NCBI RefSeq assembly: GCF_036894955.1 | Contig: NZ_CP145905.1 | Coordinates: 441,501 to 505,500 of the forward strand | Direction of reading: 5' to 3' | Length of the DNA stretch: 64,000 nt | Origin: Paenibacillus sp. KS-LC4 | GTDB taxonomy: Bacteria > Bacillota > Bacilli > Paenibacillales > Paenibacillaceae | Part shown: positions 36,340-62,974 of the stretch, in pieces | Layout of the letters: each line of letters begins with the position of its first letter | Numbering within the stretch: position 1 is the first letter of the stretch | The notes under the pieces: model-generated | The model's input: only the letters and a program-made list of their open reading frames with translations | Told to the model about the DNA's origin: nothing | Database searches by the model: none | Made by a program: the position numbers and the translations under genes

Positions 36340-36350
36340 GCATGCAGTAG

Positions 36351-36390
36351 CAGCCCTCTGTCAAGTTAATAGACAGGGGGCTGTTTATTG
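36351..36390 (+). terminator. Intrinsic terminator of the tubulin/GTPase operon
   Basis: CAGCCCTCTGTC (36351-36362) with GACAGGGGGCTG (36372-36383), one mismatch, followed by TTTATT. It closes the 12.3-kb operon. Confidence 0.75.
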
Positions 36391-36591
36391 TGCAGCTGGA
36401 AGCAATATTTTTTGCTAAAGTTCATCCCAGAGCATGCCCAAGCGGCGCATTCTGAATTATAATAAAAGACAGGATAATTTTACATATAAGCAAGGGGATA
36501 TAAATTATAAATTATAAATGAGAGAGATTAGAGGCGGCTGCTATGGAACGTGCAATTAGTCAATCAGCCTGCCTTGAGAGGGGAAAAACAA

Positions 36592-44709: not shown

Positions 44710-47229
44710 ATGGATCATACTTATGAAATCATTCAGACGGATCATGAGCTTCCGCTGCACATCTTTTTTCATAATGTCAGATACGTTCCAAATCATTGGC
44801 ATGACAGCATGGAGCTGCTGTTTGTGCTTAAGGGAAAGGCGATTATTGCTGTACAAGGCAAGCCATTCGTGCTTAATGAAGAGGATATTATTCTTATCAA
44901 TAGCAATGATATTCACACGATTCAATCGGAGCAGGAAAATCTGCTGCTGGCGCTGCAAATTCCCGACTCCTTTCTGCGAGAGCAGGGGGTAGACACGGAG
45001 CAGACCGCCTTTGAGTGCAATTCCTGCTTTCATGCTCAAGGCGATCAGCAGAAGTTCATTGAAGTTCGCACGCTGCTGTCTAGCATTATGTGGAATTATA
45101 ATAAAGCCGGATATGGCTATGAAATTAAAGTCCGCTCCCTGCTGCTGGAGCTGATATATTTGCTGCTGCGCAAATTCAGAAGCACGCAGGAAACGCGGGA
45201 ATATTCTATTAATCGCCGCACGATGGCGAGGCTGCTTCATTTAAATGAATATATTCAGGAGCATTACAATCGTCCGTTGACGCTTAATGAGCTTGCTGAG
45301 CGCGAAAATTTTTCAGTCTCTTATTTATCCAGCTTTTTTCAGAAAAGCATGGGCGTGAACTTCCGTACCTATATTACGCGCATTCGGCTGGAGCATGCGG
45401 TCAAAGCGATGCTTACGACACAGGAGCCGATCATTAAAATCGCTCTGGACAGCGGTTTTCCCAACTTAAAGGCTTTTCACAAGGCGTTCAAAGCGGTTTA
45501 CCAGATGACGCCTACGGAATATCGCGGTCACCGCGGACAGCCTTCCTCAGAGGCGGAATTGTCCGAGCCCTCCAGCGATAATTATTTGGCTTTTGACCGG
45601 GAAAATGCTTACACCAGCTTGTTTAAATATTTGCCAACGGAGGCGAATGCCGGAGCGATTGTTGCTGCTGCTGATCAAGGCTCCATCTACCGGTTCGTAC
45701 ATATCCGCGCCTCTGGAAGCGGGCGGACGCTCAAGCACACTTGGCGAAACCTATGTACAATCGGCAAGGCAAAGGAGGCGCTGTTTGCTCCCGTTCAGCA
45801 GCATTTGCGGATGGTGCAGCAGTCCATTGGCTTTCAATACATACGCTTTCATGGCATCTTCGATGATGAAATGATGGTGGCGCGGCTGGGGCCAGACGGC
45901 AAGCCCATATTCAGCTTTGGCTATGTAGATCAGGTGGTTGATTTTTTTAGAAGCATTGGGCTTCGTCCCTTCTTCGAGCTTGGCTTTATGCCGGGCGATT
46001 TTGCAGACCAGTCAAAGTTTTTCTTCCATAAAAAAAGCTATATGAGCATGCCCAAGGAGATGTGGCATTGGACCGCGCTACTGGAAGCCTTCATGCAGCA
46101 TCTCTTAAATCGTTATGGCAGCGCAGAGGTGGGCAGTTGGCGCTTTGAGTTTTGGAATGAGCCTGATGGCGGATTGTTCTGGCCGGGAACCTTTATCCAA
46201 TTTCTTGAGCTGTATGAAGCGAGCTTTAAGGCGATTAAGCAGGTGTTTCCGCAGGCGCAAATCGGTGGTCCCTGCGTGCAGGGAGATACGCTCGTATACC
46301 GTGGCCGCTGGATGGAACGGTATTTGGCCTATTGTACCGAGAGGAAATGCTTGCCGGATTTTCTGACGATCCATATGTATCCGTTCGAATACAGGATTGA
46401 AGAAAACGAGGATAATGGTGAAGTCCAGATGAGCGATTTCAGCTACGCAGGCGAGGATTATGTTGCCGAGATGCTCGGCAAGGTGAAGCGCAAGCTGTTG
46501 GAGCTAGGCTGGACGGGCACTGAGCTGCATGTGACGGAATGGAATGCAACGCCCCATCATCGTGAGCTAACGAATGATACCTGCTTCAAAGCAGCATACA
46601 TTGCCAAAAACATCGTGGAAACGTTCGACGAGATAAGCAGTCTAGGCTATTGGACAGTAACGGATTTATTGGAGGAGCTGCCGCTGCCGCAGGAGACATT
46701 CCATGGCGGACTAGGAATGATTACAAATAATGGAATAAAGAAAGCGGCCTTCTATGCCTATGAGCTTCTCGCCAAGCTGGGCAGCAAGCTGCTGGATCGC
46801 GGCGATGGCTATTGCCTGACGATGTCGAAGGAGGGGACGTACCAGCTGCTGCTGTTTCATTACGCTCATTTTGACCAGATGTATCTTAAAAATGATATTT
46901 CAGCCATTCAGCCTCATAATCGTTATGCGGTGTTTAATCATAACGACCAATTGGAGCTGAGCATACAGCTCGAGGGGTTGGAGCCGGGGACTTACCGAAT
47001 TCACCAACATATCATTAACCGGGAAGCGGGCAGCTCTTATGATGAATGGCTGCGAATGGGAGCGCCTGCCGAGCTGATGCAACCCGACATTGATTATTTG
47101 AACCAGTGCAGCGTACCGAAGCAGCATATGTGTACCGAGATAGCTGGAGATGTATGGACGCTGAAGTTTTTTCTTGCGCCTCATGAGGTGAGGCTGCTGG
47201 AGTTCAGGCGAGAATGGAATCGAGCATAA
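44710..47229 (+). CDS. AraC-type regulator fused to a GH39 glycoside hydrolase
   Basis: An 839-residue fusion. Residues 1-140 form a cupin-like sugar sensor (NHWHDSMELLFVLKG, NEEDIILINSNDIH), residues 180-275 the AraC double helix-turn-helix (LNELAERENFSVSYLSSFFQ, ending MTPTEYRGHRG), and residues 305-839 a GH39 beta-xylosidase-like barrel. The catalytic residues are present: acid/base Glu484 in FWNEPDG and nucleophile Glu610 in HVTEWN. There is no signal peptide, so it acts inside the cell. It may sense or cleave a xylo-oligosaccharide while binding DNA; whether the barrel hydrolyses or only binds is not decided. It stands upstream of the xylanase gene, a plausible target. Confidence 0.88.
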   Translation: MDHTYEIIQTDHELPLHIFFHNVRYVPNHWHDSMELLFVLKGKAIIAVQGKPFVLNEEDIILINSNDIHTIQSEQENLLLALQIPDSFLREQGVDTEQTAFECNSCFHAQGDQQKFIEVRTLLSSIMWNYNKAGYGYEIKVRSLLLELIYLLLRKFRSTQETREYSINRRTMARLLHLNEYIQEHYNRPLTLNELAERENFSVSYLSSFFQKSMGVNFRTYITRIRLEHAVKAMLTTQEPIIKIALDSGFPNLKAFHKAFKAVYQMTPTEYRGHRGQPSSEAELSEPSSDNYLAFDRENAYTSLFKYLPTEANAGAIVAAADQGSIYRFVHIRASGSGRTLKHTWRNLCTIGKAKEALFAPVQQHLRMVQQSIGFQYIRFHGIFDDEMMVARLGPDGKPIFSFGYVDQVVDFFRSIGLRPFFELGFMPGDFADQSKFFFHKKSYMSMPKEMWHWTALLEAFMQHLLNRYGSAEVGSWRFEFWNEPDGGLFWPGTFIQFLELYEASFKAIKQVFPQAQIGGPCVQGDTLVYRGRWMERYLAYCTERKCLPDFLTIHMYPFEYRIEENEDNGEVQMSDFSYAGEDYVAEMLGKVKRKLLELGWTGTELHVTEWNATPHHRELTNDTCFKAAYIAKNIVETFDEISSLGYWTVTDLLEELPLPQETFHGGLGMITNNGIKKAAFYAYELLAKLGSKLLDRGDGYCLTMSKEGTYQLLLFHYAHFDQMYLKNDISAIQPHNRYAVFNHNDQLELSIQLEGLEPGTYRIHQHIINREAGSSYDEWLRMGAPAELMQPDIDYLNQCSVPKQHMCTEIAGDVWTLKFFLAPHEVRLLEFRREWNRA

Positions 47230-47252
47230 TGTTACGAAAAGATGGGACAGGT

Positions 47253-47337
47253 GAAGGGGGAGCTGAACAAAGCTCTCCCTTCTTCTATATAAACGCCTCG
47301 CGACCGAATGTTTTATTGGTGGCGGGGTGTTTTTTTA
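47253..47337 (+). terminator. Tandem intrinsic terminators
   Basis: First hairpin: GAAGGGGGAGCT (47253-47264) with AGCTCTCCCTTC (47271-47282), one mismatch, then TTCTATAT. Second hairpin: about 47292-47331 (ACGCCTCGC with GCGGGGTGT, G-T pairs) followed by seven T. The following 290 bases to the xylanase contain TATAAT (47437-47442) as a possible -10 and an otherwise unassigned long leader. Confidence 0.65.
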
Positions 47338-47625
47338 TGAAGCAGATCGCTGCGCTTTTACGGAAAATTTTCTACATGTTTACATTTTATTATTTTAATT
47401 GCCAATTTGTTATATGGAAGGAACACCCAAATGATCTATAATGCAAGTGTTCGGTTATGAAGCGTATATGTCAGCCGGGCTATGCTGAATCGGGAAGGAC
47501 ACATCGGGAGGTCCCCCCTGGATCGAAAGGCATTTCTCGTAATCGTTCCCTCTCGTTCAGCCATTTGAGCATTGTATGCGCTTTCTTTTAGAGTTGAACA
47601 ATCGAAATGAGGAGGAGATCGTTTC

Positions 47626-50457
47626 ATGTTTTACACAGGAAGGTACACCAGAAAACTCGCAGCTATCGTACTTGTATTTTCATTGCTCGCCGCAACAGCG
47701 TTTGCTGGGCCGGTAGTCACTTATGCAGAGGAAGAGCCTGCAATTATTCTCACTTCAGATTTTGAGGATGCTACCTTGCAGGGGTGGAAGCCCCGGATCG
47801 GCGGGGAGCTTCTGACGGTTTCAAACCAAACGGCAAATGACAGCACTTATAGTATGCTGGTTGAGCAGCGGGAGCGTTCCTATTATGGACCGATGCTTGA
47901 GCTTATTAACGTGCTTGAACGCAATGTGGAATATGAATTTAAAGCATATGTACGCTTGAAGGAGGAGCCGACAGAGAATAAGACGCTGCAAATGACTGCT
48001 TATAAAAAAGAGGGTGCGGAAAGCTGGAATGCACTCGATTCGGTCGTTATCGAGCGAGCAGATTGGCAGCAATGGCATGAATTAAAGGGCCAGTTTCAAT
48101 ACAGCGATAATCCGACAGAGCTGAACCTGTTTATTGAGACACCTTATATATCGGAGGAAACGGTTGATACACTATCTTTTTATGTGGATAATTTTACGAT
48201 TAAGAGAGCTTCGCCGCTTGTCATAGAAGAGCAAATTCCTTCGCTGAAGGAGCATTTCTCAGAGGATTTTCCAATCGGCGCAGCAGTCTACACTTGGCAG
48301 ATGGATGGCGTCTATGGTGAACTGCTCAAAAAGCATTTCAGCAGCTTGACGGCAACCTATGAAATGAAGCCGAAATTTATTGCGCCAGCTGAAGGCCAAT
48401 ATGTGTTTGATGCAGCGGATCGCTACGTTCAGTTTGCAGAGGATAATAATATGCAGATACGGGGCCATGCGTTGCTCTGGCATATTGACGCTGCGGAATG
48501 GATGCTGAAGGATAGTGCGGGTCAGCCAGCAAGCAGGGAGCTGCTGCTCGGCCGTATTCAAAGCTATATTGAAACGGTAATGACACGTTATAAGGGTAAG
48601 GTTGATGCCTGGGACGTTGTTAATGAAGCGATAGCCGACAATGGCGGCGATGAGAACGGCATGCGGATCAGTCCGTTTTACACGCTAATTGGACCTGATT
48701 ACGTCGAGAAGGCATTTGAGTTTGCACGTGCGGCTGATCCCGATGCCAAGCTGTACTATAACGAATATTATACAGAGGTTCCAGAAAAACGAGCGTATAT
48801 GTACCAGCTTGTAAAAGGGTTGAAGGAGAAAGGGCTGATCGACGGTGTAGGCCTGCAATCTCACTATGGTCTATACTCGCCGCCAATTGATGAAATTGAG
48901 AAAACGCTCAATATGTTTATTGACCTGGGACTCGATATTCAAATTACGGAGCTGGATGTTGATAGCGTCATTCCATTTGGTCAGACGATGCCCTATGATA
49001 TAGCGATCAAGCAAGCACACCGCTACAAGGAGCTGTTTGAGCTTTATAAAGAGTACAAGGCGCACATTTCCTCCGTGACGCTTTGGGGCCTTCAGGATGA
49101 GAAGTCCTATAACAATCAAGCGATGCTGTTTGATGCCAAGCTGCAAGCGAAGCAAGCCTATTGGGGGCTAATTGATCCGTCGCTGCTGCCTGTGGAGACG
49201 AATCGTGTCGTTTCACTCGCAGGGACACCGGCAGCTGGTGCTGTACAGGCTAAAGAGTGGAGCCATGCGGTTGTAAGCAAGCTGAAAGGGAGCCATTCGC
49301 TGTCGGGCACGTTCCGTACGTTCTGGGATGAGGATTACTTGCATGTTTTGGTGGACGTAAACGACGTGACCTTTAATGCTAATGATCAAGTTGAGCTGTT
49401 TATTGATGAAAATAATGCTAAATCCAGCGGATATGAGCAAGATGACCGTCATATTACGCTCAAGCGCTCCGGGCAGGCGCCAAATGGGATCACCTCCATG
49501 ACGAGAGAAATAACAGGAGGCTATACTATGGAAGCTTCTATTCCATGGGAAAGCGTCCAAGCGGCATTGGGTGCTGATGTTGGATTTGATATTCGGATAA
49601 CGGATACAAATTCAGCTAATGGGGAGCAAGTGATTTATTGGAATGATAGTACGCTTAACCAGCAGAGTGATCCGAGCAAGTTCGGTATCATTCAACTGGA
49701 GAGCATGCCGAAAATCGCAGAGTCGGTTAAAGGTGAAGCCCAAATTGACGGGATCATGGAGACAGCTTGGAGTCAGGCAGTACCGTTCCAAGTGGACATT
49801 TTGAATCAGCCTGGAGGGGCGACTGGAGTTGCACGCTCCATGTGGTCGGATGACAGCCTATATTTGTTTGTTGAGGTGAACGACCCTATTGTATTGACTA
49901 CTGGACTCAACCCTTGGGATCAAGACTCGGTAGAAATTTTTATAGATGAAAACCATCAGCGGACGCCTTTTTATCAATATGATGATGTGCAGTTCCGTGT
50001 GAATGCCGATAATGTAGCAACTTTTGGCGGAGGGGCTGCGCCATCGCGGCTGGAAAGCGCGGTAGTCCGCACGGATAATGGCTATAACGTTGAGTTGAAG
50101 ATCAAATTAAACAGCCTTCAGCCAGTTCCTGGTTCCGTAATGGGCCTTGATTTGCAAGTGAATGACGATAAAGGAACGGGACAAAACAGCAATGCAAAAT
50201 GGAATGATCCGACGAATGAAACGTGGAGAAACACCTCGAAATTTGGTATTTTAACGTTTGTATTACCTGAAGCAGGCGGCGGCACTGACCCTGGACACGG
50301 CCCCGGACACGGCCCCGGACACGGCCCCGGGCACGGCTCTGGGCACGGCTCTGGACACGGCCCTGGACACGGCCCCGGACATGGCCCTGGGCACGGACAT
50401 GGCCCTGGACACGGACATGGCCCTGGACACGGACCTGGTCCTGGAAAAGGTCGCTAA
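47626..50457 (+). CDS. Secreted GH10 endo-xylanase with CBM22, two CBM9 and a Gly-His-Pro tail
   Basis: A 943-residue extracellular enzyme. Order: signal peptide (about 1-35), CBM22-like xylan-binding domain (about 40-195, DFEDATLQGWKPRIG), GH10 barrel (about 205-520), two CBM9-type modules (about 535-690 and 700-885, each with FWDEDYLHVLVDVND or MWSDDSLYLFVEVND), and a C-terminal tail (about 887-943) of GPGH, GSGH and GHGP repeats with 14 His. Catalytic acid/base is Glu334 (VVNEA) and nucleophile Glu442 (ITELD). It should cut the xylan backbone into oligosaccharides. Unlike many large Paenibacillus xylanases it ends without S-layer homology domains. It is probably monocistronic. Confidence 0.93.
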   Translation: MFYTGRYTRKLAAIVLVFSLLAATAFAGPVVTYAEEEPAIILTSDFEDATLQGWKPRIGGELLTVSNQTANDSTYSMLVEQRERSYYGPMLELINVLERNVEYEFKAYVRLKEEPTENKTLQMTAYKKEGAESWNALDSVVIERADWQQWHELKGQFQYSDNPTELNLFIETPYISEETVDTLSFYVDNFTIKRASPLVIEEQIPSLKEHFSEDFPIGAAVYTWQMDGVYGELLKKHFSSLTATYEMKPKFIAPAEGQYVFDAADRYVQFAEDNNMQIRGHALLWHIDAAEWMLKDSAGQPASRELLLGRIQSYIETVMTRYKGKVDAWDVVNEAIADNGGDENGMRISPFYTLIGPDYVEKAFEFARAADPDAKLYYNEYYTEVPEKRAYMYQLVKGLKEKGLIDGVGLQSHYGLYSPPIDEIEKTLNMFIDLGLDIQITELDVDSVIPFGQTMPYDIAIKQAHRYKELFELYKEYKAHISSVTLWGLQDEKSYNNQAMLFDAKLQAKQAYWGLIDPSLLPVETNRVVSLAGTPAAGAVQAKEWSHAVVSKLKGSHSLSGTFRTFWDEDYLHVLVDVNDVTFNANDQVELFIDENNAKSSGYEQDDRHITLKRSGQAPNGITSMTREITGGYTMEASIPWESVQAALGADVGFDIRITDTNSANGEQVIYWNDSTLNQQSDPSKFGIIQLESMPKIAESVKGEAQIDGIMETAWSQAVPFQVDILNQPGGATGVARSMWSDDSLYLFVEVNDPIVLTTGLNPWDQDSVEIFIDENHQRTPFYQYDDVQFRVNADNVATFGGGAAPSRLESAVVRTDNGYNVELKIKLNSLQPVPGSVMGLDLQVNDDKGTGQNSNAKWNDPTNETWRNTSKFGILTFVLPEAGGGTDPGHGPGHGPGHGPGHGSGHGSGHGPGHGPGHGPGHGHGPGHGHGPGHGPGPGKGR
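50291..50451 (+). repeat. 12-base coding repeat encoding Gly-Pro-Gly-His units
   Basis: Degenerate tandem 12-mers of the form GGACACGGCCCC (with T/C and A/G third-base changes, and Ser variants) encode the His-rich xylanase tail. Several neighbouring units are identical at the DNA level, which makes length change by slippage likely. Confidence 0.85.
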
Positions 50458-50590
50458 AGGGTATATTAATAATTTGTTATAAGAGCCACTCTTTTATCAT
50501 ATAGACGCAAACCTTTTGTCTTTATACTGAGTACAGACGTTAATTTACATCGTTTGTAGTACGGAATATGAACAGAAGGGGAGCGCCAAT

Positions 50591-51553
50591 ATGAAGTATT
50601 CAAGTACCCAGGCAGTGGAAAAAATAGCAAGCGCACCATCGCTTCCGGATGTACGCAAGAGTAGGAAGTGGAGAAGGACGATTGTGCTGGATTTGCTGCT
50701 GCTGCCGGCGGTCATTTTAACATTCGTTTTTGCTTATATTCCGATGAGCGGTCTTGTTATTGCTTTTCAGGACTATAAGCCGTGGCTGGGCTTTGCCAAA
50801 TCATCGTGGATTGGTCTTGAGCATTTCGAATACCTGTTTAGCACAAAAGAGAATATGCAGGTCATTTGGAATACGCTCATTATTGCCGGAATGAAGGTTG
50901 TTGGCGGGCTGATTGCCCCACTCGTATTTGCTCTTCTATTAAATGAAGTGAGAAAGGCGGCATTTAAACGAACCGTACAAACCTTCGTCTACTTGCCGCA
51001 TTTTCTCTCATGGGTTATTTTGGGCGGCATTTTAATCGACATGCTTTCCACTAAAGGGCTGATCAATCAGTTTTTAGTAGCCGTGCTTCACATCGAGCCG
51101 ATTTTCTTTCTTGGTGAAGGCAACTGGTTCCGCGTCGTCGTTGTTGTCAGTGATATTTGGAAGGAATTCGGCTTTGGCGCCATTATTTTTCTAGCCTCGC
51201 TTGCCGGTATTAATCCTTCGCTGTATGAAGCGGCGGAAGTAGATGGAGCGAATAGATGGCAGCAAACATGGTCAATTACACTGCCTTCACTTATTCCAAT
51301 TATGATCGTAGTAGGAACGCTGTCACTAGGCAACATTTTGAACGCAGGCTTTGATCAAATTTTTAATCTGTATAATGCACTGGTATTTGATAAAGGCGAT
51401 ATTATAGATACCTTCGTGTATCGCGTAGGAATTGTGGATGGCAAGTTCGGATTCTCCGCTGCGGTTGGACTGTTTAAATCAGTCGTTGGCTTCGTACTAA
51501 TCGTCGCAGCTTATCGCGCTGCATACAAATTCGCCAATTACCGCATTTTTTAA
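50591..51553 (+). CDS. Carbohydrate ABC transporter permease (LplB type)
   Basis: A 320-residue permease of the binding-protein-dependent sugar importer class, with a cytoplasmic N-terminus and six membrane helices. Typical are the opening YIPMSGLVIAFQDYKP and the EAA loop EAAEVDGANRWQQTWSITLP that contacts the ATPase. The operon has no ATPase gene, which is normal for this class because a shared MsmX-type ATPase serves them. GGGGAG precedes ATG 50591. With the next two genes it forms an oligosaccharide importer, likely for xylanase products. Confidence 0.9.
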   Translation: MKYSSTQAVEKIASAPSLPDVRKSRKWRRTIVLDLLLLPAVILTFVFAYIPMSGLVIAFQDYKPWLGFAKSSWIGLEHFEYLFSTKENMQVIWNTLIIAGMKVVGGLIAPLVFALLLNEVRKAAFKRTVQTFVYLPHFLSWVILGGILIDMLSTKGLINQFLVAVLHIEPIFFLGEGNWFRVVVVVSDIWKEFGFGAIIFLASLAGINPSLYEAAEVDGANRWQQTWSITLPSLIPIMIVVGTLSLGNILNAGFDQIFNLYNALVFDKGDIIDTFVYRVGIVDGKFGFSAAVGLFKSVVGFVLIVAAYRAAYKFANYRIF

Positions 51554-51571
51554 AGAGGAGGAGCTGAATTT

Positions 51572-52450
51572 ATGTACCACAAAACGAATTCTTATAAAGT
51601 ATTTTCAATCTTTAATTATACGCTGCTTGCTGTACTGTCGCTGATCTGTCTAATTCCGCTCATCCATATTCTCGCCGTTTCGTTCAGCGGTAAAGCGCCA
51701 GCTAATGCCAATCTGGTAGGACTGCTGCCGGTGCAATTTACAATTGATGCTTACTCTCAAACGCTGGCTAATGAAAACTTTTTACGCTCACTGTGGGTTT
51801 CTTTTGTTAGAACGGGGCTCGGAACGCTAATCAGTATGGTCGTTGTCATTTGTGCAGCTTACCCATTGTCTAAGGAAATTGGAAATTTCAAGCGCAAAAA
51901 AGTGTATACATGGTTTTTCGTGTTCACGATGCTTTTCAACGGGGGACTCATTCCCTTTTATATTTTGATTCAAAACCTTAATATGATGAATACGCTGTGG
52001 GTGCTTATTTTGCCAGGAGCAGTGTCCGTCTGGAATATCATTTTGCTGCTTAACTTCTTCAAGAATGTGCCGAAGGAGCTTGAGGAAGCGGCATTTATAG
52101 ATGGGGCGGGTTATTTAAGAACGCTGGTCAGCGTATATCTCCCGGTCTCTATGCCAGCAATTGCTACCCTGTCATTGTTTGCGATGGTCGGCCACTGGAA
52201 TTCATGGTTCGATGGAATGATCTTTATGACCGATTATAAAAACTATCCACTGGCTACCTTCCTGCAAACGATTATTGTCCAGCAGGATTTCAGTAAAGTG
52301 TCGGTACGTCCCGAGGATTTGGAAAATATTTCACAAAGAACGGTGAAGGCGGCACAAATCTTCATCGGCATGGCACCTATATTGCTCGTATATCCGTTTC
52401 TGCAACGCTTCTTCGTAAAGGGCATCGTCATTGGGGCGGTCAAGGAATAG
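51572..52450 (+). CDS. Carbohydrate ABC transporter permease (YtcP type)
   Basis: A 292-residue partner permease with six helices. Family signs are the N-terminal FNYTLLAVLSLICLIPLIHI, the conserved KKVYTWFFVFTMLFNGGLIP, the EAA loop EEAAFIDGAGYLRTLVSVYL and the C-terminal VYPFLQRFFVKGIVIGAVKE, nearly invariant in this group. AGAGGAGG stands before ATG 51572, 19 bases after the first permease gene. Confidence 0.92.
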   Translation: MYHKTNSYKVFSIFNYTLLAVLSLICLIPLIHILAVSFSGKAPANANLVGLLPVQFTIDAYSQTLANENFLRSLWVSFVRTGLGTLISMVVVICAAYPLSKEIGNFKRKKVYTWFFVFTMLFNGGLIPFYILIQNLNMMNTLWVLILPGAVSVWNIILLLNFFKNVPKELEEAAFIDGAGYLRTLVSVYLPVSMPAIATLSLFAMVGHWNSWFDGMIFMTDYKNYPLATFLQTIIVQQDFSKVSVRPEDLENISQRTVKAAQIFIGMAPILLVYPFLQRFFVKGIVIGAVKE

Positions 52451-52577
52451 GAAGGCGAGGAAGCGGGAGGTTGGTGAAGGGGAGGTGCTGCCTTAGCATA
52501 AAGCGAAAGGAAGAACGTGAAAATATTTATTTTGCAATTACAGCTTTCAAAAAGATATTAAATTGGGGGACGCAACT

Positions 52578-54272
52578 ATGTTGAATCAACTTAAAAAGCC
52601 TTTTACCGTACTGATGTCTGCTGCGATGCTTGCTGGTGTACTTGCTGCTTGCGGCACTAGCTCAGAGGCAGACCCAACGAACAACAGCAGCAGCAGCGAC
52701 AGCTTCTATTCTGCAAGCTTTGAGAATGGGAAATATACCGAGCCAGTTTCCATAACGACTGTATTTCCAATCGGCAGCAATGTGAAGTTTAAAAATGGCG
52801 AAAACATCGACAACAACGTTCATACGAAGTGGGCAAAAGAGAGACTTGGCATCGACATTAAATATTTATGGACGGTCAGTGATCAAAATAATGCTTATCA
52901 AACAAAGCTCCGTTTAATGCTTACATCAGGTCAGGAGATGCCGGATATTATTGCCTTCCGCGGCGAGCCGACTCTAATTAGCGACTTAATTGAATCGGGA
53001 CAATTTACGGATGCTGGAGAATTATTCGACAAATACGCTTCCGAAACGTATAAGCAGGCGATGGCAGAAGATCCATCGGTATGGAATCCTTATATTCGCG
53101 ATGGAAAAAGGATGGGTATTCCTATATTGGAGAACGCCTACAATAACGACCCGGTTATGTACATACGTGAGGACTGGCTGAAGGCGGTTGGCCTCGAAGC
53201 GCCAACTACGCTGGACGAGCTGGAGAAGGTTATGGACGCATTCGTTAATCAGGACCCGGATAAAAATGGAGAGAAAGATACGACAGCCCTTTCTGTAGGC
53301 TTCAAAGTCAACCTGAATACATGGATGTCTGATTCAGGCTGGATTTTTGGTATGTTTGGCGCAATGCCGAATCAATGGAACATGGGAGCGGACGGAACGC
53401 TAGTGTATGGTTCTATCCAACCGGAAATGAAGCCAGCGCTGGCCAAAATGCAGGAATGGATGGCAAAGGGCTACATCGACAAAGAAGCGGGCCTCTATGA
53501 TGAGGTTAAGGCGACAGAAGCATTTACGGCAGGTAAATCCGGTATTATCGTCGGTCCTTACTGGATGACAGGCTGGCCGATCCCTGACCTGCTGAAAAAC
53601 GTTAAAGGTGCGGATTACAAAGCTTATCCTCTGCCAGCAGGCCCAGATGGCAAGATTGGACGTCATGGCACCTTAACGAGTACAGGCGCGGTTCTGATTA
53701 ATAAAGATATGAAAAATAAAGATGCCTTTTTCGTCTACCAGAACTATTTGTTCGACAACTGGGCGAATCCGAAAGAAGGCGGAGAGTTTGAAAATGGCTT
53801 CGCTGAAAACTATGATTTTGCGCTCGATCCGAATGGAAAACCTTATCCTGCTACAGATACCGATAAAGTTCCTGGCGGCTGGGTCGATCCAATACGTTAC
53901 ACCTTGACGTTCGACGGTGCCATTATTCCGTCCTTGCGTCTCAATACGCTGGCTAAGCTTGCAGGCGGAGCAGAGCCAACGACGCGGTTCGAGAAAAACC
54001 TGTCTATGTCGCTTCCTAAGCAGCTTGAGGCTGCTAAAATCGTCATTGATCAGAAGGATACTATTATGCCGCAAATGTTTACAGGGGTTCCAACGAAAAC
54101 GCAGCTGTCGAAAAACGATATGCTGACTAAGCTGGAGAAGGAAGTTTTGAATAAAATCATTTACGGCAAAGCCTCGGTGGACGAGTTTGACACCTTTGTT
54201 GAGCAGTATCTCGCCTCTGGCGGCAAGAAAGTTACGGAAGAAGTTAATGAGTGGTACGCTACGGTTAAGTAA
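52578..54272 (+). CDS. Extracellular oligosaccharide-binding lipoprotein
   Basis: A 564-residue solute-binding lipoprotein of the LipO/YtcQ type. Signal peptide with lipobox LAAC makes Cys25 the lipidated residue, followed by a Ser/Asn-rich spacer. The mature protein has the family pattern of two alpha/beta lobes (KWAKERLGIDIKYLWTVSDQ, EMPDIIAFRGEP, and the hinge-side GIPILENAYNND). ATG 52578 is preferred to the in-frame TTG 52563 because GGGGGA lies seven bases upstream. It delivers oligosaccharides to the two permeases before it. Confidence 0.9.
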   Translation: MLNQLKKPFTVLMSAAMLAGVLAACGTSSEADPTNNSSSSDSFYSASFENGKYTEPVSITTVFPIGSNVKFKNGENIDNNVHTKWAKERLGIDIKYLWTVSDQNNAYQTKLRLMLTSGQEMPDIIAFRGEPTLISDLIESGQFTDAGELFDKYASETYKQAMAEDPSVWNPYIRDGKRMGIPILENAYNNDPVMYIREDWLKAVGLEAPTTLDELEKVMDAFVNQDPDKNGEKDTTALSVGFKVNLNTWMSDSGWIFGMFGAMPNQWNMGADGTLVYGSIQPEMKPALAKMQEWMAKGYIDKEAGLYDEVKATEAFTAGKSGIIVGPYWMTGWPIPDLLKNVKGADYKAYPLPAGPDGKIGRHGTLTSTGAVLINKDMKNKDAFFVYQNYLFDNWANPKEGGEFENGFAENYDFALDPNGKPYPATDTDKVPGGWVDPIRYTLTFDGAIIPSLRLNTLAKLAGGAEPTTRFEKNLSMSLPKQLEAAKIVIDQKDTIMPQMFTGVPTKTQLSKNDMLTKLEKEVLNKIIYGKASVDEFDTFVEQYLASGGKKVTEEVNEWYATVK

Positions 54273-54338
54273 GCTCGAACTTTAGCATTAGAATGAGCTT
54301 AAGATCGGTGTATGAGTAGGCGAATAGGGAAAGAAGAA

Positions 54339-54370
54339 AGGGCGGCTCCTGCTTGGGAGCCGCCCTATTT
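54339..54370. terminator. Strong intrinsic terminator
   Basis: A perfect 11-bp GC-rich stem (54339-54349 with 54356-54366), six-base loop, then ATTTG. It separates the convergent transport and two-component operons. Confidence 0.8.
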
Positions 54371-54393
54371 GCCATACTTTTCTACAATGAAGC

Positions 54394-56004
54394 TTATGCC
54401 ATTTCCCGGTATTCCTGTGGCGTCATGTCGAATTTATCGCGGAATACCTTAATGAAATATTGCGAATTGGAATAGCCGAGCTTATCGGAAATTTCATAAA
54501 CTTTATCGCTGGAATGGCGAAGCAAATAGATGGCAAGATCCATCTTCACTCCGAGAATGTACTCACTTAGGCTAATGCCCTTTAGCTGCTTGAACAACTT
54601 GGATACATAGACCGGATGCAGCCCAACATGATCGGCTATCGACTGAAGGCTGAGCGTAGGCAAGTGAGTGGAAACAAACACCTGTATGGCCTGTATGACG
54701 GCATTTTGCTCATTGAGGGAGTGCTCATCCAGCCTTGCATGCAGTGTATCGCAAAGCTCCTCGGCCCATTCAATTAGTTGGGTTACCGAGCGGAACATCC
54801 GGTTATACACGAGCTCCTGGCCCACTAGATCGGATAATAGCGAGTGATTTTTATGCGCGATATAATGAAAGGCGGACATAAGCAGGCTTCTAATCTCTTC
54901 CAGATGCTCCTCCGTTTGCTCAGATAAGGAAAAGTAGGAAGCTTCAATTTGCCGCAAGCGCTCCTTGAAGGCCTCCCATTGCCCAAGCTCTAGCAGGTGA
55001 TTGAGCGCTGGAGGCTCATACAGCACATGCAGCGAGCGGATGAACACCGCTTGCGGCTGATCCGAAAGCGATAAGAAATACCCGCTTCCCTTACCAACCT
55101 GCTTCTTCAATGCCGAGGTAGCATGCTCATACATAGCGCGGATATCCTGCTGAAGCTTGCCCGGAGAGGCAAGAATGACCGATATGCCGCCCTTCAAATA
55201 TTCGTTCACATTATGATGGAGCTGGAGCGAGCGATGTGTGAGCAGCTTTTTTAGAAAGTCGTTCGTAGGCAATACTTCAGCCTGCTTGGGCCGCAGCAGA
55301 AAAACAAGATAGTCGTAGCTGTCCCGACAATGCCAAATATCAAAGCTGTCCTCATACAGCTCACAAGCAATATTGGTTACTGCATATTCGAAGAGCTGCA
55401 GGCTGTTCAAGCTGTAGCGGGTGAACTGCTCCTCCAGACGAACGAGCACCAGAAAGACGTCATCTCCATCGCGAAAAGCGAGCTGGTAGCCTGACAGCCG
55501 CTCATTTAATGTTTCGGTGCTATAACGATTTCCCTGAATCAGCTGATTCAGCAGCTTGTCTTTTAATGAGGGAAGATGCTCGCGAAACGTAAGCATCGCT
55601 TGCTCATAGGAGGCTGCATGTTCAAGCTGAAGCTCGATTAAACGTATTGTTTTTGTCAGGCAGCCTGCAAGCTTTTCCTGATCAAGCGGCTTAATTAAAT
55701 ATTCAACAACCCCTTGTTCAATGGCTTCTCTCGCATATTCAAATTCCGCATAGCCGGTCAGCAAAATGCAGGGGATGCTTCTCCCGCGCGCTCTAACGTG
55801 TTTTATGAGCTCCAATCCATTCATGCCGGGCATGGCAATGTCAGTAATAACGATGTCAATGGACTGACTGTCTATGATTTGAAGCGCCTCTATACCTGAA
55901 TAGGCTTTATGAATTTTATCTATGCCATAGTCGCTCCATGGAAAAGCGATTTCCAAATCATCAATTACATAAGATTCATCATCAACTAACAATATTTGCA
56001 GCAT
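54394..56004 (-). CDS. YesN-type response regulator with AraC DNA-binding domain
   Basis: A 536-residue regulator. The receiver domain (1-125) has the acidic pair Asp8/Asp9, phospho-acceptor Asp55 (TDIAMPG), Thr82 and Lys104 (YLIKPLD). A long middle helical region (about 130-430) links to the C-terminal AraC double helix-turn-helix (about 435-535, LSLQSIADHVGLHPVYVSKL ending MTPQEYREM). Its start overlaps the end of the histidine kinase gene by 23 bases, so the two are coupled. It should activate the neighbouring sugar importer and possibly the glycosidase genes. Confidence 0.92.
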   Translation of the reverse strand: MLQILLVDDESYVIDDLEIAFPWSDYGIDKIHKAYSGIEALQIIDSQSIDIVITDIAMPGMNGLELIKHVRARGRSIPCILLTGYAEFEYAREAIEQGVVEYLIKPLDQEKLAGCLTKTIRLIELQLEHAASYEQAMLTFREHLPSLKDKLLNQLIQGNRYSTETLNERLSGYQLAFRDGDDVFLVLVRLEEQFTRYSLNSLQLFEYAVTNIACELYEDSFDIWHCRDSYDYLVFLLRPKQAEVLPTNDFLKKLLTHRSLQLHHNVNEYLKGGISVILASPGKLQQDIRAMYEHATSALKKQVGKGSGYFLSLSDQPQAVFIRSLHVLYEPPALNHLLELGQWEAFKERLRQIEASYFSLSEQTEEHLEEIRSLLMSAFHYIAHKNHSLLSDLVGQELVYNRMFRSVTQLIEWAEELCDTLHARLDEHSLNEQNAVIQAIQVFVSTHLPTLSLQSIADHVGLHPVYVSKLFKQLKGISLSEYILGVKMDLAIYLLRHSSDKVYEISDKLGYSNSQYFIKVFRDKFDMTPQEYREMA

Positions 56005-57715
56005 GTTTTTCCTCCCGTTTTTGAATCGTAATGATATAGCAGGTGCCGCCTGATGGAGGACGCTGTAACGCTAGCCCTGAGCTTTTGCCAAAATAAAGCC
56101 GCAGCCGTTGATTGACGTTGCGAATGCCAGTCCCAATAGCATCCTCGGGATGATGCATAAACTCCTCCATATGATTAGCAATGACGGCCAGCCGCTCCTC
56201 GCTTATGCCTACTCCGTTATCTCTAATATAAATGCGAATGTCCTGAGCGTCTTCCTCGGCTTTGATCTCTATTAGCCCGGGAAGCATGGAAGGCTCAATT
56301 CCGTGCTTAATGCAGTTTTCTACCAGCGGCTGAAGAATCATTCTAGGTAAACGAATGAATGATAAACTTCCGTCAACTTCAATCGTGTAATTGATCGTTT
56401 TTTTTCGCATATGCATGATGGAAAGATAATGCTTAACAAAGTTCAGCTCTTCTTGCAGCGTGGAGTCGATATCTTCAATTTTGTTAATGTAACGGCAGTA
56501 AGAAGCGAGCTCCAGCGTCATTGCTGTCACCGCAGCGTGATCTTTAATGCTGGCTTTGCTCTGAATGTAATTTAGACAATTATACAGAAAATGAGGATTA
56601 ATTTGCGCTTGGTATTGCTTAAGCCTCGCCTCTTGAATAGATAAGTCGCCTAGCAGCACCTGCTCAATGAGGAACTGGGTATGCTCGGCCATACGATTAA
56701 AGGATTTCCCCAGCATGCCAAATTCCTTCGTATGCATGGAAACTACCCTGCTGGAATAATCGCCGCGATCGAAGCGGTCTATCGCTTTTCTAAGGCCAAT
56801 TATAGGCGTTCGCACTTGATTGTGAAGAATGAGGCTGTAGATAAGCGATATAAGCAGCAGCGCGACAAGGGCGATAACGAACAGTGTATTATTTCGCGAG
56901 ATCGGCTTAATGAGCTGGGTAATGGGATGATAGTCAATAAAATAAAGCTCCAGCATGTCCAGCTTCATATAGCTGAGCAAATATTCCGCTTGATTTTCCT
57001 CCAAGGTGATGAAGCCGCTATTTCCTTGAATGAGTGGAAGAATCCAACTGTCGGCTTGAGCCAAGTCGGATGACCCTTCATTGCGGATCGCTATCATTTG
57101 ATGAGCATCGTAAAGCAGCGGTGTTCCCGAGGTATATTGCTGCATCATTTTCCGCAAATTGTCGAGTGAAATTCTGGTCTCAATATATAGCGGTCCGAGA
57201 TGGCCTTTAGTTAAATGGGAATAGTAACCCTCTCCGTCCGCCTCCATATGGATAGTCCACTGATTAAGCGGTTCATCCGGCAACTCGAATTTTTGAAAGG
57301 AGAAGCTGGGATCAGAGGATACGGTTTCCCGCTGGTCGGGATAATACAAAATGACGGTATTGTTCCAAGAGGTAGAGGCACTGTTTAACGCTAGCTTTTC
57401 AATTATGGCAAGCTTCATCTCATATTTTGAATAATCATCGCCCCGCTCCAAAACATACGGGTAGCCGCGAACCGTCTGATCCTCTGACAAGATGATGGCA
57501 TTCATTAATATTTGTTCGAACTGGTTGGATAGCTGTGAGGTCATGAATTTCACCTCTCCAAGCTTGTTATTGCGCAGCTCGGTTTGAATATCCTTGACAT
57601 TAAGCTGATAAATCCACCAGAAGATAACGACGATAGACAAAAACATCAGCATCAAGCCGAGCGCCAGCTTTTGAAAAATGGATAAACCGCCGTTTGTCGC
57701 CTGTCCTTTCAACAT
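55982..57715 (-). CDS. YesM-type sensor histidine kinase
   Basis: A 577-residue membrane kinase. Membrane helix 1 (about 17-38), an extracellular sensor (about 40-275), helix 2 (about 277-300), a HAMP linker, then the His_kinase domain with phospho-acceptor His375 in QINPHFLYNCLNYIQS and a GHKL ATPase with LVENCIKHGIEP and DNGVGIS. This is the class that pairs with YesN regulators to sense plant polysaccharides. ATG 57715 is chosen because GGGGGAG lies seven bases before it; the open frame extends to 57760. Confidence 0.92.
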   Translation of the reverse strand: MLKGQATNGGLSIFQKLALGLMLMFLSIVVIFWWIYQLNVKDIQTELRNNKLGEVKFMTSQLSNQFEQILMNAIILSEDQTVRGYPYVLERGDDYSKYEMKLAIIEKLALNSASTSWNNTVILYYPDQRETVSSDPSFSFQKFELPDEPLNQWTIHMEADGEGYYSHLTKGHLGPLYIETRISLDNLRKMMQQYTSGTPLLYDAHQMIAIRNEGSSDLAQADSWILPLIQGNSGFITLEENQAEYLLSYMKLDMLELYFIDYHPITQLIKPISRNNTLFVIALVALLLISLIYSLILHNQVRTPIIGLRKAIDRFDRGDYSSRVVSMHTKEFGMLGKSFNRMAEHTQFLIEQVLLGDLSIQEARLKQYQAQINPHFLYNCLNYIQSKASIKDHAAVTAMTLELASYCRYINKIEDIDSTLQEELNFVKHYLSIMHMRKKTINYTIEVDGSLSFIRLPRMILQPLVENCIKHGIEPSMLPGLIEIKAEEDAQDIRIYIRDNGVGISEERLAVIANHMEEFMHHPEDAIGTGIRNVNQRLRLYFGKSSGLALQRPPSGGTCYIITIQKREEKHAANIVS

Positions 57716-57880
57716 GCTCTTTCTCCCCCGTGTCTGAATAATCTTTCTTTCATTATACATGTAAAATACAGCCGATTAGGCGGCAGCTATATGGCCTTTT
57801 TTATTTTCTTTTTGAAAGAGTAGGGACGACGCGCAAGGATAATCATAAAAAGTGACATTGTTTTCAATGAAACGAGGGAA

Positions 57881-57908
57881 GGAAAGCGCTAAACAAACGC
57901 TCTATACT
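57881..57908 (+). promoter_or_regulatory. Possible operator and -10 of the GH3 gene
   Basis: GGAAAGCGCTAAAC (57881-57894) resembles a cre box at 11 of 14 positions, and with the ACGCT that follows makes an AGCG/CGCT inverted repeat. TATACT (57903-57908) just downstream is a possible -10 element. Weak on sequence alone. Confidence 0.35.
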
Positions 57909-57966
57909 TAAAGTCAGCTGATAAAGAAGATTCATCATCACCTATATCGAATTGGAGGTTTTTACA

Positions 57967-60243
57967 TTGACGAGAAACATTCAGGATATCGTAGCTCAAA
58001 TGACGCTGGAGGAAAAAGCGGGGCTTTGCTCAGGACTAGATTTCTGGCATTTGAAAGGTGTTGAGCGTCTAGGCGTGCCTTCCATTATGGTAACGGATGG
58101 ACCACACGGCTTGCGCAAGCAGCAAACAGGTGCGGATCATCTGGGAATTTTCGACAGCGTTCCCGCAACTTGCTTCCCATCGGCAGCCGGACTTGCTTGC
58201 TCATGGGATGAAGAGCTGATTGGCAAGGTCGGCGTCGCGCTTGGTGAAGAATGTCAGGCAGAGGATGTTGCCGTGCTGCTGGGACCTGGTGTAAACATTA
58301 AACGTTCCCCGCTTTGCGGACGCAACTTTGAATATTTTTCCGAGGACCCGTATTTGTCCTCCGAGATGGCGGCAAGTCACATTAACGGCGTACAAAGCCA
58401 AGGCGTCGGAACGTCGCTGAAGCATTTTGCCGTAAACAATCAGGAGCATCGCCGGATGTCGACGGATGCGGTCGTTGATGAGCGCACGCTTCGTGAAATT
58501 TATTTGGCAAGCTTCGAGGGCGCAGTGAAGAAAGCGCAGCCTTGGACCGTTATGTGCTCTTATAACCAAGTGAATGGCGTATTCGCATCGGAGAATGTGA
58601 AGCTGCTTACAGATATTTTGAAGGATGAGTGGGGTCATGAGGGCTTTGTCGTTTCGGACTGGGGCGCGGTTAATGAGCGTGATCTGTCGCTTGCAGCAGG
58701 CATGGAGCTGGAAATGCCAGCAAGCAACGGCGTAGGTGAGAAAAAGGTACTCGATGCAATCAGCAATGGCACATTGACTGAGGAAGCTTTAGATCGTGCA
58801 GTAACGCGTCTGCTTCGCATTATTTTCAAATCGGTAGACGAGAAGGTTAAGGATGCAACGTATGACAAAAACGCGCATCATCAGCTGGCAAGAACAGTAG
58901 CAAGCGAGAGCATGGTGTTGCTGAAAAACAAAGGCGGCTTGCTTCCACTTGCAAAAAACAGCCGTGTAGCCGTTATCGGCGCTTTTGCCGAGAAACCGAG
59001 ATTCCAAGGCGGCGGCAGCTCGCATATTGTACCGACAAAGCTGGATCAGCCCGTTGAAGAAATTAAGGCGCTCGTTAGTGATGCTTCTGCTGTTGTATAT
59101 GCTCAAGGCTATCACGCGGGTGATGATGCTATTGATGAAGCGCTGATCGAAGAAGCGAAGCGTGCGGCGAGCGAGGCAGAGGTTGCTGTTATTTTTGCAG
59201 GCTTGCCGGATCGTTATGAATCAGAAGGGTATGATCGTGAGCATCTTAATCTGCCTGAAAATCAAAATAAGCTGATCGAAGCGGTTGCCAGCGTTCAAAG
59301 CCGCATCGTTGTTGTGCTGCTTAATGGATCAGCGGTACTGCTGCCGTGGCTGGATCAAGTAGATGCTGTGCTTGAAGGCTATTTGGGCGGACAGGCTGTT
59401 GGTGGAGCTGTTGCAGATTTGCTGTTCGGAGAAGTGAATCCTTCCGGCAAGCTTGCAGAGACGTTCCCGCTCAAGCTGAGTGATAACCCTTCATTCTTGA
59501 ACTTCCCGGGTGAAGGAGATCGGGTGGAATACAAGGAAGGCATTTTCGTAGGCTACCGTTATTATGACAAAAAGCAGCAAGATGTATTGTTCCCATTTGG
59601 CTTTGGTCTTAGCTACACAACCTTTGCTTACAGCGATTTGAAATTAAGCGCAGCCAGCATCAAGGATACAGATGAGGTTGAAGTAACGGTCAACGTAACC
59701 AACACAGGCAGCGTAGCTGGCAAAGAAATTGTACAGCTTTATGTAAAGGATGTTGCAAGCACAGTCATCCGTCCAGAGAAAGAGCTGAAGGGCTTTAAGA
59801 AGGTAGCGCTCGCACCTGGCGAGACAAAGACGGTAAGCTTTGTACTGAATAAGCGTGCTTTCGCTTACTACAATGTGGATATTAAGGATTGGCATGTAGA
59901 AAGCGGCGACTTCGCGATTTTGGTAGGGCATTCCTCGCGGGAAATCGTCCTTGAAGCGACACTTGCAGTAGAATCTACGGTTAAGCTGAAAAAGCACTAT
60001 ACGCAAAATACGACTCTTGGCGATCTGTACAGCAACGAAGAGGCAACGGCTATTTTACAGCCATATATGCAGAAGTTTCAAGAGAATAGCCCGCTTGCAA
60101 GTGTTGATCAAGATGATGCACATGCGGAAATGATGGTCAAAATGATGCAATACATGCCGCTTCGCAACCTGATGGCATTCGGAGGCGATGCTTTCACCAA
60201 GGACATGCTTGACCAATTAATTAAAGAGCTAAATAGCTTATAA
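57967..60243 (+). CDS. GH3-family glycosidase (beta-glucosidase/xylosidase type)
   Basis: A 758-residue intracellular enzyme without signal peptide. The GH3 N-terminal barrel (about 10-285) has [25 protein letters not shown] and the nucleophile Asp231 in VVSDWGAV. The alpha/beta sandwich (about 315-520) contains [11 protein letters not shown], a Glu-rich [11 protein letters not shown] segment where the acid/base is expected, and [15 protein letters not shown] fibronectin III-like domain (about 580-655) follows. TTG 57967 lies eight bases after TTGGAGG. It should release sugars from imported oligosaccharides; glucose versus xylose specificity is open. The GPH transporter gene follows 38 bases later. 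Confidence 0.92.
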
Positions 60244-60281
60244 ATTAGCATTTAAGGCTAGGTTCAAGAGGAGAATGTGCA

Positions 60282-61652
60282 ATGAGTGCGAATCAGAAAG
60301 CAAGTGGCGTTCAAGATGACGCGTACCACAAAGTAGGATGGTCGGAACGAATTGGTTATGGTTTTGGCGACGCAGCGAGTAACCTGATCTTCACAGGAGC
60401 GGCTACATTTTTAACGTATTATTATACGGATGTCATGGGGCTGGCTGCAGGTGCAATCGGAACGATGATGCTGATCGCCCGTATATTGGATGCTTTCCTG
60501 GACGTAGGTGTAGGGGCATGGGTAGACAAAACGAAAAACAAGCATGGTAAAGCACGTCCATGGCTGCTATGGATGATGATCCCGTTTGCCGCTTCAGGCG
60601 TACTGCTCTTTACATTCCCGGATGTAGGCCCAGGCGGAGCCCTCGTCTATGCCTATGTCACTTATTTACTCATGAACTTTATTTATTCGTTCATTAACAT
60701 TCCTTATGGGGTGTTGAATTCACTTATTACGCAAGACGGCTACCAGCGCTCGATACTCAACATCGTTCGTATGCTTGGTGCGCTTGCAGGGGCAATCGGT
60801 GTCAGCTTCGCTACTCAGCCGCTCGTACAAGCATTTGGCGGCGGGGAAAAAGGCTGGATTTTAACCTTCTCCCTCTATGGCGTTCTATCGCTTATTATGT
60901 TCTACATCACCTTTAAATCGACGCGTGAGCGTGTAAAACCGTCCGTGTCTCAAAAAGAAATTCCGTTCAAGCAAGGCTTGGGCGCGTTGTTCCGCAATAA
61001 ATATTGGGCGATTATGCTATTGTTCGCTGTCGTTGTCTATACGAACAATGGCATGAGCGGCTTAAACATTTATTATGCACAGTATCTGCTGAATGATGCT
61101 GGACTGCTCGGCATTCTCAGCTTTGCCGGATTGATTCCTATTGCAATTGGCTTGTTCTTGATTGCTCCGCTTATTAAGAAGTATGGGAAACGGAACGTAG
61201 CCATAGTCGGAAGCTTTATTATGATTGTAGGCTCGCTAGTCGTCTTAATTGACCCGACGAATGTAACCTTTGTTATTGTTGGCTTGGTAATCAAGGCGCT
61301 TGGCGTGACGCCAATCATCGGTACGATTTTTGCTATGCTGGCTGATACTGTTGAATACGGCGAATGGAAAACGGGCGTACGGACAGAGGGTCTCGTCTAC
61401 AGTGCCGGAAGCTTTGGTACAAAAGCAGGCAGTGGCCTTGGAGCAGCTATTATTGGCTGGGGGCTGGCGTTAGGAGGCTATATCGGCGGACAAGAAACGA
61501 TTAGCTCCAGCGCTAGTGGTGCGATCCACTTCATGTTTATTTATTTGCCGATTATTTTGGCGGCTATCCAGATTGTCATCCTGTATTTCCATAAGCTCGA
61601 TAAGCTGTACCCGCAAATTGTTACCGAGCTGAAAGCTGTTAAAAAAGCATAA
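60282..61652 (+). CDS. GPH-family sugar:cation symporter
   Basis: A 456-residue membrane protein with twelve helices of the glycoside-pentoside-hexuronide family (MelB/XynB type). Family signs: SERIGYGFGDAASNLIFTG near the N-terminus, DAFLDVGVGAWVDKTKNKHG after helix 2 with conserved Asp residues for the coupling cation, and EYGEWKTGVRTEGLVYS in the second half. It has no C-terminal EIIA domain. AAGAGGAG precedes ATG 60282. Co-transcribed with the GH3 gene, it probably imports short xylosides or glucosides. Confidence 0.92.
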   Translation: MSANQKASGVQDDAYHKVGWSERIGYGFGDAASNLIFTGAATFLTYYYTDVMGLAAGAIGTMMLIARILDAFLDVGVGAWVDKTKNKHGKARPWLLWMMIPFAASGVLLFTFPDVGPGGALVYAYVTYLLMNFIYSFINIPYGVLNSLITQDGYQRSILNIVRMLGALAGAIGVSFATQPLVQAFGGGEKGWILTFSLYGVLSLIMFYITFKSTRERVKPSVSQKEIPFKQGLGALFRNKYWAIMLLFAVVVYTNNGMSGLNIYYAQYLLNDAGLLGILSFAGLIPIAIGLFLIAPLIKKYGKRNVAIVGSFIMIVGSLVVLIDPTNVTFVIVGLVIKALGVTPIIGTIFAMLADTVEYGEWKTGVRTEGLVYSAGSFGTKAGSGLGAAIIGWGLALGGYIGGQETISSSASGAIHFMFIYLPIILAAIQIVILYFHKLDKLYPQIVTELKAVKKA

Positions 61653-62062: not shown

Positions 62063-62152
62063 TATAGAGAAATCATGAGTGGTATTGCCTTGTTACAGCG
62101 GTCGTTCACCACATCACGATGCAAGATAGCGTAGAGAGGGATGAAGGTCATC

Positions 62153-62974
62153 ATGGCAGTGTTTCAGTATAATCCGGAGCGCCCCTTTCGTGATGCTCCG
62201 GATATGTATTTGCTTTATTGGGGCAAGGAGGCATGTAAGCCTTGTCATCTCATAGGGCCGGTCGTAAGGGAAAACTTTAAACTGCATTTTATCCATAAAG
62301 GAAAAGGGACTGTGAAGGTGGCGGGCAAAACCTACACGCTGACAGCCGGACAAGCATTCCTCATTTATCCGCAGGTGCTTATTTCCTATGAATCGGACGA
62401 GAAGGACCCGTGGACGTACTCCTGGATCGGTTTTTTGGGAGAGCAGGCCGCTGAAATCATCGCTCGGACATCTATTACGCCAGAGAACCCTGTATTTCCT
62501 ATGGATATGAAGCTGATGCCAACGTTATATGATCAGTTGACGGAGGCTGTCTCCCACCAAGTCAGCAGTGATTTGCGCCTTCAAGCTATTTTGTATGAGT
62601 TTTTGTCGCTGCTTGTCGAGTTCGTGCCTTTAACAGACAACCATATCAGTAATGCCACGCGTAAGCAGGAAGCCTACATTCACCGAAGTATGGAGTTTCT
62701 ACACGCCCACTACAGTGAACGAATTACGATGGAGCAGCTAGCTGACGTACTCGGTCTGGATCGCAAATATTTGTCTTTTCTGTTTAAAGAGGCTGTAGGC
62801 ATGCCGCCACAGCAGTATTTGCTTAACTATCGTATGGATAAAGCCTGCGAGCTGCTCGGCAAGGGTATTTACAGCATTAGTGAGGTGGCGCGTTCCGTAG
62901 GGTATCAAGATGCGCTGCTTTTTTCCAAAATGTTCAAAAAGGTAAAGGGAACAGCTCCGCGTAATTTTGAATAG
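62153..62974 (+). CDS. AraC-family transcriptional regulator with cupin sensor
   Basis: A 273-residue regulator. The N-terminal cupin-like arm (about 15-150) has FKLHFIHKGKGTVKVAGKTY and TAGQAFLIYPQ, typical of sugar-responsive AraC proteins such as MsmR or RafR. The double helix-turn-helix (about 175-270) includes ITMEQLADVLGLDRKYLSFL and ISEVARSVGYQDALLFSKMF. An in-frame ATG at 62141 would add four residues but sits too close to GAGAGGG; ATG 62153 follows AAGG. It may regulate the upstream GH3-GPH operon or the downstream aldo/keto reductase. Confidence 0.88.
   Translation: MAVFQYNPERPFRDAPDMYLLYWGKEACKPCHLIGPVVRENFKLHFIHKGKGTVKVAGKTYTLTAGQAFLIYPQVLISYESDEKDPWTYSWIGFLGEQAAEIIARTSITPENPVFPMDMKLMPTLYDQLTEAVSHQVSSDLRLQAILYEFLSLLVEFVPLTDNHISNATRKQEAYIHRSMEFLHAHYSERITMEQLADVLGLDRKYLSFLFKEAVGMPPQQYLLNYRMDKACELLGKGIYSISEVARSVGYQDALLFSKMFKKVKGTAPRNFE

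Follow-up and report, generated by a model that had tools for sequence, protein, structure and literature searches.

A predicted sugar-responsive regulator with an intact GH39 domain and its candidate GH3-transporter operon in Paenibacillus

Introduction

Can a complete glycoside hydrolase act as the sensor of a transcription factor within one polypeptide, and if so, which genes would it control? The question is raised by a gene of Paenibacillus sp. KS-LC4 that lies in the 64,000 nucleotides analysed here (contig NZ_CP145905.1, positions 441,501 to 505,500, hereafter the window, to which all coordinates refer) and that joins an AraC-type regulator to a GH39 domain. Both halves, and the fusion itself, are already known from annotation, and passages of PMC8543862 mention that some GH39 xylosidases carry an N-terminal AraC-like domain, the same architecture as found here. 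In that work the AraC part was trimmed ahead of the alignment, and a regulatory role is not discussed in its section 5 or in the related passages. Part of PMC4730625 also describes a GH39 gene that had been annotated as an AraC regulator and came from a clone weakly active on pNPXyl. We found no described function for AraC-GH39 proteins in the open-access literature, which misses most subscription papers. As far as our searches show, the new elements are the repeated loss of the acid/base residue in the fused family only, the partnership with GH3 and transporter genes, and a candidate DNA element (see below).

Results and Discussion

Architecture and active site of the fusion

The fusion gene (44710..47229, forward strand) is open from an ATG start codon and encodes 839 aa. 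Pfam places a cupin (AraC_binding) domain at aa 21-101 (44770..45012, forward; 41.6 bits, cut-off 21.1), an AraC/XylS-type double HTH (HTH_18) at aa 195-272 (45292..45525, forward; 75.2 bits, cut-off 33.6) and a Glyco_hydro_39 domain at aa 330-812 (45697..47145, forward; 262.2 bits, cut-off 26), the latter covering positions 3-468 of the 472 in the profile, which confirms the three-part architecture claimed in a first-pass annotation of this DNA. The cupin residues H29, H31, E35 and H69 (HxH...E...H) are conserved in 94-97 of 103 rows. By reading of the sequence only, the N-terminus (MDHTYEIIQTDHEL...) has no visible hydrophobic stretch or signal peptide, in agreement with the absence of a secretion signal noted in that annotation. 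The C-terminal part aligns along its length with GH39 beta-xylosidases of known structure (2bs9, E 4e-70), and in the AlphaFold model of the whole protein (mean pLDDT 82, pTM 0.72), which has a low-confidence linker at aa 276-295, the GH39 part finds its best Foldseek match in 2bfg (E 3.6e-43, TM 0.89 on target). All parts are under purifying selection (dN/dS 0.02-0.10 against three near relatives), ruling out a pseudogene, and the protein is the sole GH39 in its 6.25 Mb genome. Judged by sequence, enzyme and regulator parts are both intact in one protein. The label "xylosidase" is a name derived from the family.

The two glutamates expected of a GH39 enzyme are present, as the first reading had stated. 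Structure and family alignments identify Glu484 (codon 46159..46161, forward) as the general acid/base, aligned with that of XynB1 from Geobacillus stearothermophilus (Glu in 2bs9, Ala in the 2bfg chain), and Glu610 (46537..46539, forward) as the nucleophile, within a TEWN stretch aligned to the nucleophile motif TEYN. The third catalytic residue of GH39 as listed in PMC8543862, the His at position 555 (46372..46374, forward), is present according to the family alignment and that list. Among the substrate-recognition positions given in the same part of PMC8543862, H381, F426, N483, F490, Y557, W648 and E656 are kept. XynB1 (2bs9, 2bfg) shares with the fusion the whole GH39 fold, both glutamates and the glycone-site residues, but it lacks an AraC part, has 28% identity over the structural alignment, and differs at two of the positions listed in PMC8543862, Phe328 and Tyr283, where the fusion has Leu654 and Pro615 (the latter as in XylP81).

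Distribution of AraC-GH39 fusions

Fusions of about 840 aa are common in Paenibacillaceae and scattered in other Bacillota. Searched with the GH39 half, 22 of 51 genus genomes and 149 of 392 order genomes gave matches at E 0.001, tallies that take in standalone GH39 and weak matches; strong matches fell mostly within open frames of ~830-880 codons. Full or partial fusions were found, among others, in Paenibacillus, Robertmurraya, Neobacillus, Lederbergia, Listeria goaensis, Aquibacillus, Tissierella, Clostridium, Anaerocolumna and a Treponema MAG. A profile search yielded 80 named loci. Two GH39 peptide motifs, neither of which contains E484 or E610, served to collect the set L111-L190, a procedure that favours well-conserved barrels. 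Altogether 122 fusions were found, 117 of them full-length (the five partial ones were dropped) and 102 distinct; for residue counts they were set beside 32 of 39 standalone GH39s, each covering more than 400 profile positions.

Fused and standalone GH39s are separated by a single change on an 80-row tree (SH-aLRT 86) and by two changes when four long rows are omitted, which fits an origin of the fusion in one or two events. These are quick trees with SH-aLRT support only, built from rows kept below 72% identity to each other and leaving out L107 and L108 as too decayed. With ~840-aa fusions in many genera and only one or two changes on the tree, a chance or recent fusion is rejected.

Repeated loss of catalytic residues in the fused family

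Position 484 is Glu in 93 and position 610 in 101 of the 102 distinct full-length fused sequences; both glutamates, together with His555, are kept in 92, while all 32 standalone GH39s have the two glutamates. The ten exceptions (L163, L153, L152, L148, L019, L106, L102, L101, L107 and L108) all lack His555, and nine retain E610. L101 is the odd one: in a stretch that aligns poorly, position 484 shows a Glu and position 610 does not. Alignment at E484 is uncertain for L101, L102, L106, L107 and L108; for L148, L152, L153, L163 and L019 the active site was inspected visually, and in Clostridium puniceum (L148) WNAPD stands instead of WNEPD. Fusions without the acid/base still match GH39 (L148 275, L152 284, L019 230 and L153 188 bits, compared with 262 for the window protein). 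The tree needs four changes of active-site state, again four without the four long rows, and the AU test (p 0.0018) rejects a single clade of L148, L152, L153 and L019, a grouping picked once the tree was known. E484 and H555 have been lost together on about four fused branches, with fold and E610 retained.

A fused barrel that is kept after the acid/base Glu is gone fits a role in binding or sensing in which hydrolysis is optional, and we read the barrel as retained for binding, hydrolysis being usual yet dispensable. The first-pass proposal that the GH39 domain is the inducer sensor gains support from this pattern of an active site kept in most fusions and an acid/base lost without the barrel in others. 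In the Treponema MAG (L163:427-7166), the acid/base-less fusion gene points away from a row of genes for a solute-binding protein, an intact standalone GH39 and a permease, a divergent arrangement that may be read as sensor and enzyme split between two proteins. Within the intact fused set, the glycone-site residues H381, N483, H555, Y557, W648 and E656 are nearly invariant, whereas the F490 position is Phe in 60 and Cys in 32 of the 92, and the L654 position Phe in 41, Leu in 23 and Ile in 22, compared with Phe at both positions in 32 of 32 standalone sequences. Ligands probably differ, then, within the AraC-GH39 family.

A complete catalytic set (both glutamates and His555) in 92 of 102 fusions exceeds the needs of mere binding. 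The cupin is moreover a classical sugar-sensing domain with its HxH/E/H residues conserved, so the GH39 part need not be the sensor: the cupin could sense the sugar and the AraC half could be joined to an ordinary intracellular beta-glycosidase, the fusion merely linking the expression of both. The lack of any other GH39 in the genome would agree with this explanation, which we regard as the main rival but nevertheless consider rather unlikely, given that several lineages without the acid/base Glu and the His still keep the fused barrel, that a GH3 is already in the pathway (see below), and that an enzyme at the level of a regulator would be a poor bulk catalyst. A sensing GH39 pocket remains our preferred reading.

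Gene neighbourhood and the predicted target operon

Directly downstream of the fusion lies a GH10 xylanase gene (47626-50457), the first of a block (47626..57760; Pfam and neighbourhood comparison) that continues with ABC permeases, a lipoprotein and a YesN/YesM-type two-component system. The lipoprotein is without Pfam match and was judged to be of the solute-binding type by its position, and the two-component pair, with its response regulator at 54394-56004, is on the reverse strand. Beyond this block come a GH3 gene of beta-glucosidase type (57952..60243, forward; Pfam, structures and relatives' neighbours) and a GPH (MFS_2) glycoside symporter (60282..61652, forward; Pfam and relatives' neighbours), both predicted targets of the fusion, and directly after the symporter a separate, ordinary AraC regulator of 277 aa (62141-62974), conserved in G002 and G035. 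Neighbouring genes were taken as mechanically called ORFs.

The fusions of G002 and G035 have 90% identity to that of the window over the protein and 87% in the GH39 part, that of G038 65%, and in these three genomes the fusion is followed directly by GH3 and then GPH, the GH10 block being absent. Among 20 loci compared, only the window and G048 have the block from GH10 to the two-component system behind the fusion. Over 68 distinct fusion loci, a GH3 gene on the same strand occupies one of the positions +1 to +3 in 45, a GPH, EIIC or MFS transporter does so in 43, and both in 36; 23 have no GH3 there, and eight of the 68 hold fewer than three downstream genes. As a control, GH3 was within three genes of a standalone GH39 in 2 of 22 loci. 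The window GH3 is nearest to the beta-glucosidase 7ms2 (1117 bits), that of another fusion clade to the beta-glucoside phosphorylase 5vqd (512 bits), and the best NCBIfam model for the former is an arabinopyranosidase, below its cut-off. These similarities point to beta-glucosides rather than xylan, with the limit that GH3 specificity is not readable from similarity alone.

This neighbourhood suggests that the GH3-GPH operon, rather than the GH10 xylanase gene, is the regulatory target of the fusion. The first-pass annotation had instead proposed a self-limiting xylan switch of the adjoining xylanase that would respond to xylobiose or xylosides. The fusion does adjoin GH10, and the closest solved relatives of its GH39 part are beta-xylosidases, but the GH10 block is missing beside the fusion in the next relatives and in all other compared neighbourhoods save G048, the gap 47230-47625 holds no conserved element (see below), and the conserved partners are a beta-glucosidase-like GH3 and a GPH, EIIC or MFS transporter, so that we regard a xylan target as improbable.

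Some features of these neighbourhoods deserve mention in their own right. At its C-terminus the GH10 xylanase has a long tail of Gly-Pro-His repeats (GHGPGHGPGHG...); the protein is 943 aa long in the window, against 987 aa for that of G048. One clade (16 loci in cluster 2) carries a lone PTS EIIC of cellobiose/lactose type beside AraC-GH39 and GH3 (L129, L133, L139, L140, L144, L150, L160 and L165 among them). In L142, L145, L146 and L147 the fusion is followed by a GH3 of 915-922 aa, with permuted Pfam order (seen for L146), the C-terminal before the N-terminal domain.

A candidate operator in front of the GH3 gene

Alignment of the DNA before GH3 in the window, G002, G035 and G038 revealed one strongly conserved block, consisting of AAAAAGTGACATTGTTTTCA (57847..57866, forward), about ten bases, GGAAGGAA (57877..57884, forward), which overlaps the expected -35 region, and a candidate -10 box TATACT (57903..57908, forward) of the GH3-GPH operon. 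The first two, found in the footprint alignment and followed by genome and genus scans, are the halves of a candidate operator. With as many as three mismatches allowed, its own genome contains the element only once. Five of 51 genus genomes (G000, G002, G035, G038 and G048) carry it without a mismatch, and these are the ones with the five fusions most similar to that of the window. Some match at up to three mismatches exists in 35 of the 51, presumably mostly by chance because reversed-pattern controls match too, and 25 of 392 order genomes have one at up to two mismatches. The two-mismatch copies of G024 and G417 sit right behind the fusion gene, as does the G035 copy. We scanned 60 gaps between fusion and +1 gene (from the 64 loci with a +1 gene, of 68) and found up to two mismatches in five, four mismatches in one and five mismatches in four. 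A search of L111-L190 (2.68 Mb, both strands) gave four occurrences of the two-part pattern, and the gap scan places it between fusion and +1 gene in L111, L112, L124 and L127.

Two other sites of action were rejected. The GH10 promoter is disfavoured, the element being absent from the gap 47230-47625 by alignment, window scan and two-part pattern scan, and the GGAAGG found there not being common to G048. Autoregulation fares no better: upstream of the relatives' fusion genes the best matches have 5 to 10 mismatches, and the only site in the window with three mismatches or fewer is the one before GH3.

The pairing of fusion and element is weakened by the detection of the element in only part of the family and by the 23 of 68 loci without GH3, and the separate AraC protein beside the operon could bind the element instead. 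That the element belongs to this AraC (62141-62974) or to the response regulator (54394-56004), both encoded near the operon in the window and the former with a relative after GPH in G002 and G035, while the fusion regulates something else, seems to us a remote prospect, since the element, in full or weaker form, occurs in L127, L112, L124, L126, L056 and L057 without a 62141-type AraC among the near neighbours and no two-component genes lie beside the operon in G002 and G035.

Proposed mechanism

We propose, with slightly more confidence than doubt, that the fusion is a one-component activator of AraC type whose GH39 pocket senses a beta-glycoside and switches on the GH3-GPH operon. The protein would be a cytoplasmic transcription activator with the C-terminal GH39 as its ligand-sensing domain. 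The GPH symporter would bring in a short beta-linked glycoside that fills the pocket; in this state the protein could bind the two-part element (57847-57884) through its HTH pair, next to the -35 region, and turn on the operon (57952-61652), with bulk hydrolysis of the glycoside left to GH3. Here we infer DNA binding, the activating direction, the ligand class, allosteric coupling and catalysis from features that were computed: architecture, intact active site, family-wide conservation, GH3 and transporter partners, the element, and repeated acid/base loss with the fold kept. As the pocket is very probably catalytic, the sensor may also slowly hydrolyse its ligand and help to end the signal.

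A more speculative extension, which we put forward only tentatively, is that GH39 turnover works as a clock: the signal would be a bound, slowly hydrolysed or covalent glycosyl-enzyme state, and kcat would set the response pulse. If so, in lineages where the nucleophile remains but the acid/base Glu and the His are gone, the clock would have become a plain or a trapped sensor.

Should the inducer bind in the GH39 pocket, the fusion would be a one-component switch in which a single active site both senses and destroys the inducer, and natural variants without the acid/base Glu already exist to separate sensing from destroying. A large and hardly studied family, AraC-GH39, would gain a predicted target and element.

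Relation to known regulators

Sensing through a C-terminal fused domain has a parallel in Btr of Bacillus, an AraC-type activator, although the sensor domain there is a binding protein, unlike the enzyme domain of AraC-GH39. Trigger enzymes such as BirA and PutA resemble the fusion, as predicted here, in that one protein both carries an enzyme domain and regulates genes; we know of none that is a glycoside hydrolase. The AraC part of the fusion matches the Btr model NF049932 weakly (43 bits).

AryK of Staphylococcus aureus (NCBIfam NF047455) is an AraC regulator of similar length to the fusion and, according to part of PMC3922988, regulates toxin expression and metabolism. The window fusion reaches 224.6 bits against this model in two stretches, below its cut-off of 850, and is thus outside the AryK equivalog. 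L101 and L102, the nearest of the fusions to the AryK model, match it over nearly the whole length and show a decayed GH39. Via such intermediates, the C-terminal parts of the staphylococcal regulators look like decayed GH39 domains, and the AraC-GH39 family may help with the ligands of these related regulators.

Elsewhere in the window, a GAP1-N2/GAP1-M protein, a CHASE2-nucleotide cyclase and a FecR-domain protein are encoded in one row (33097-39986).
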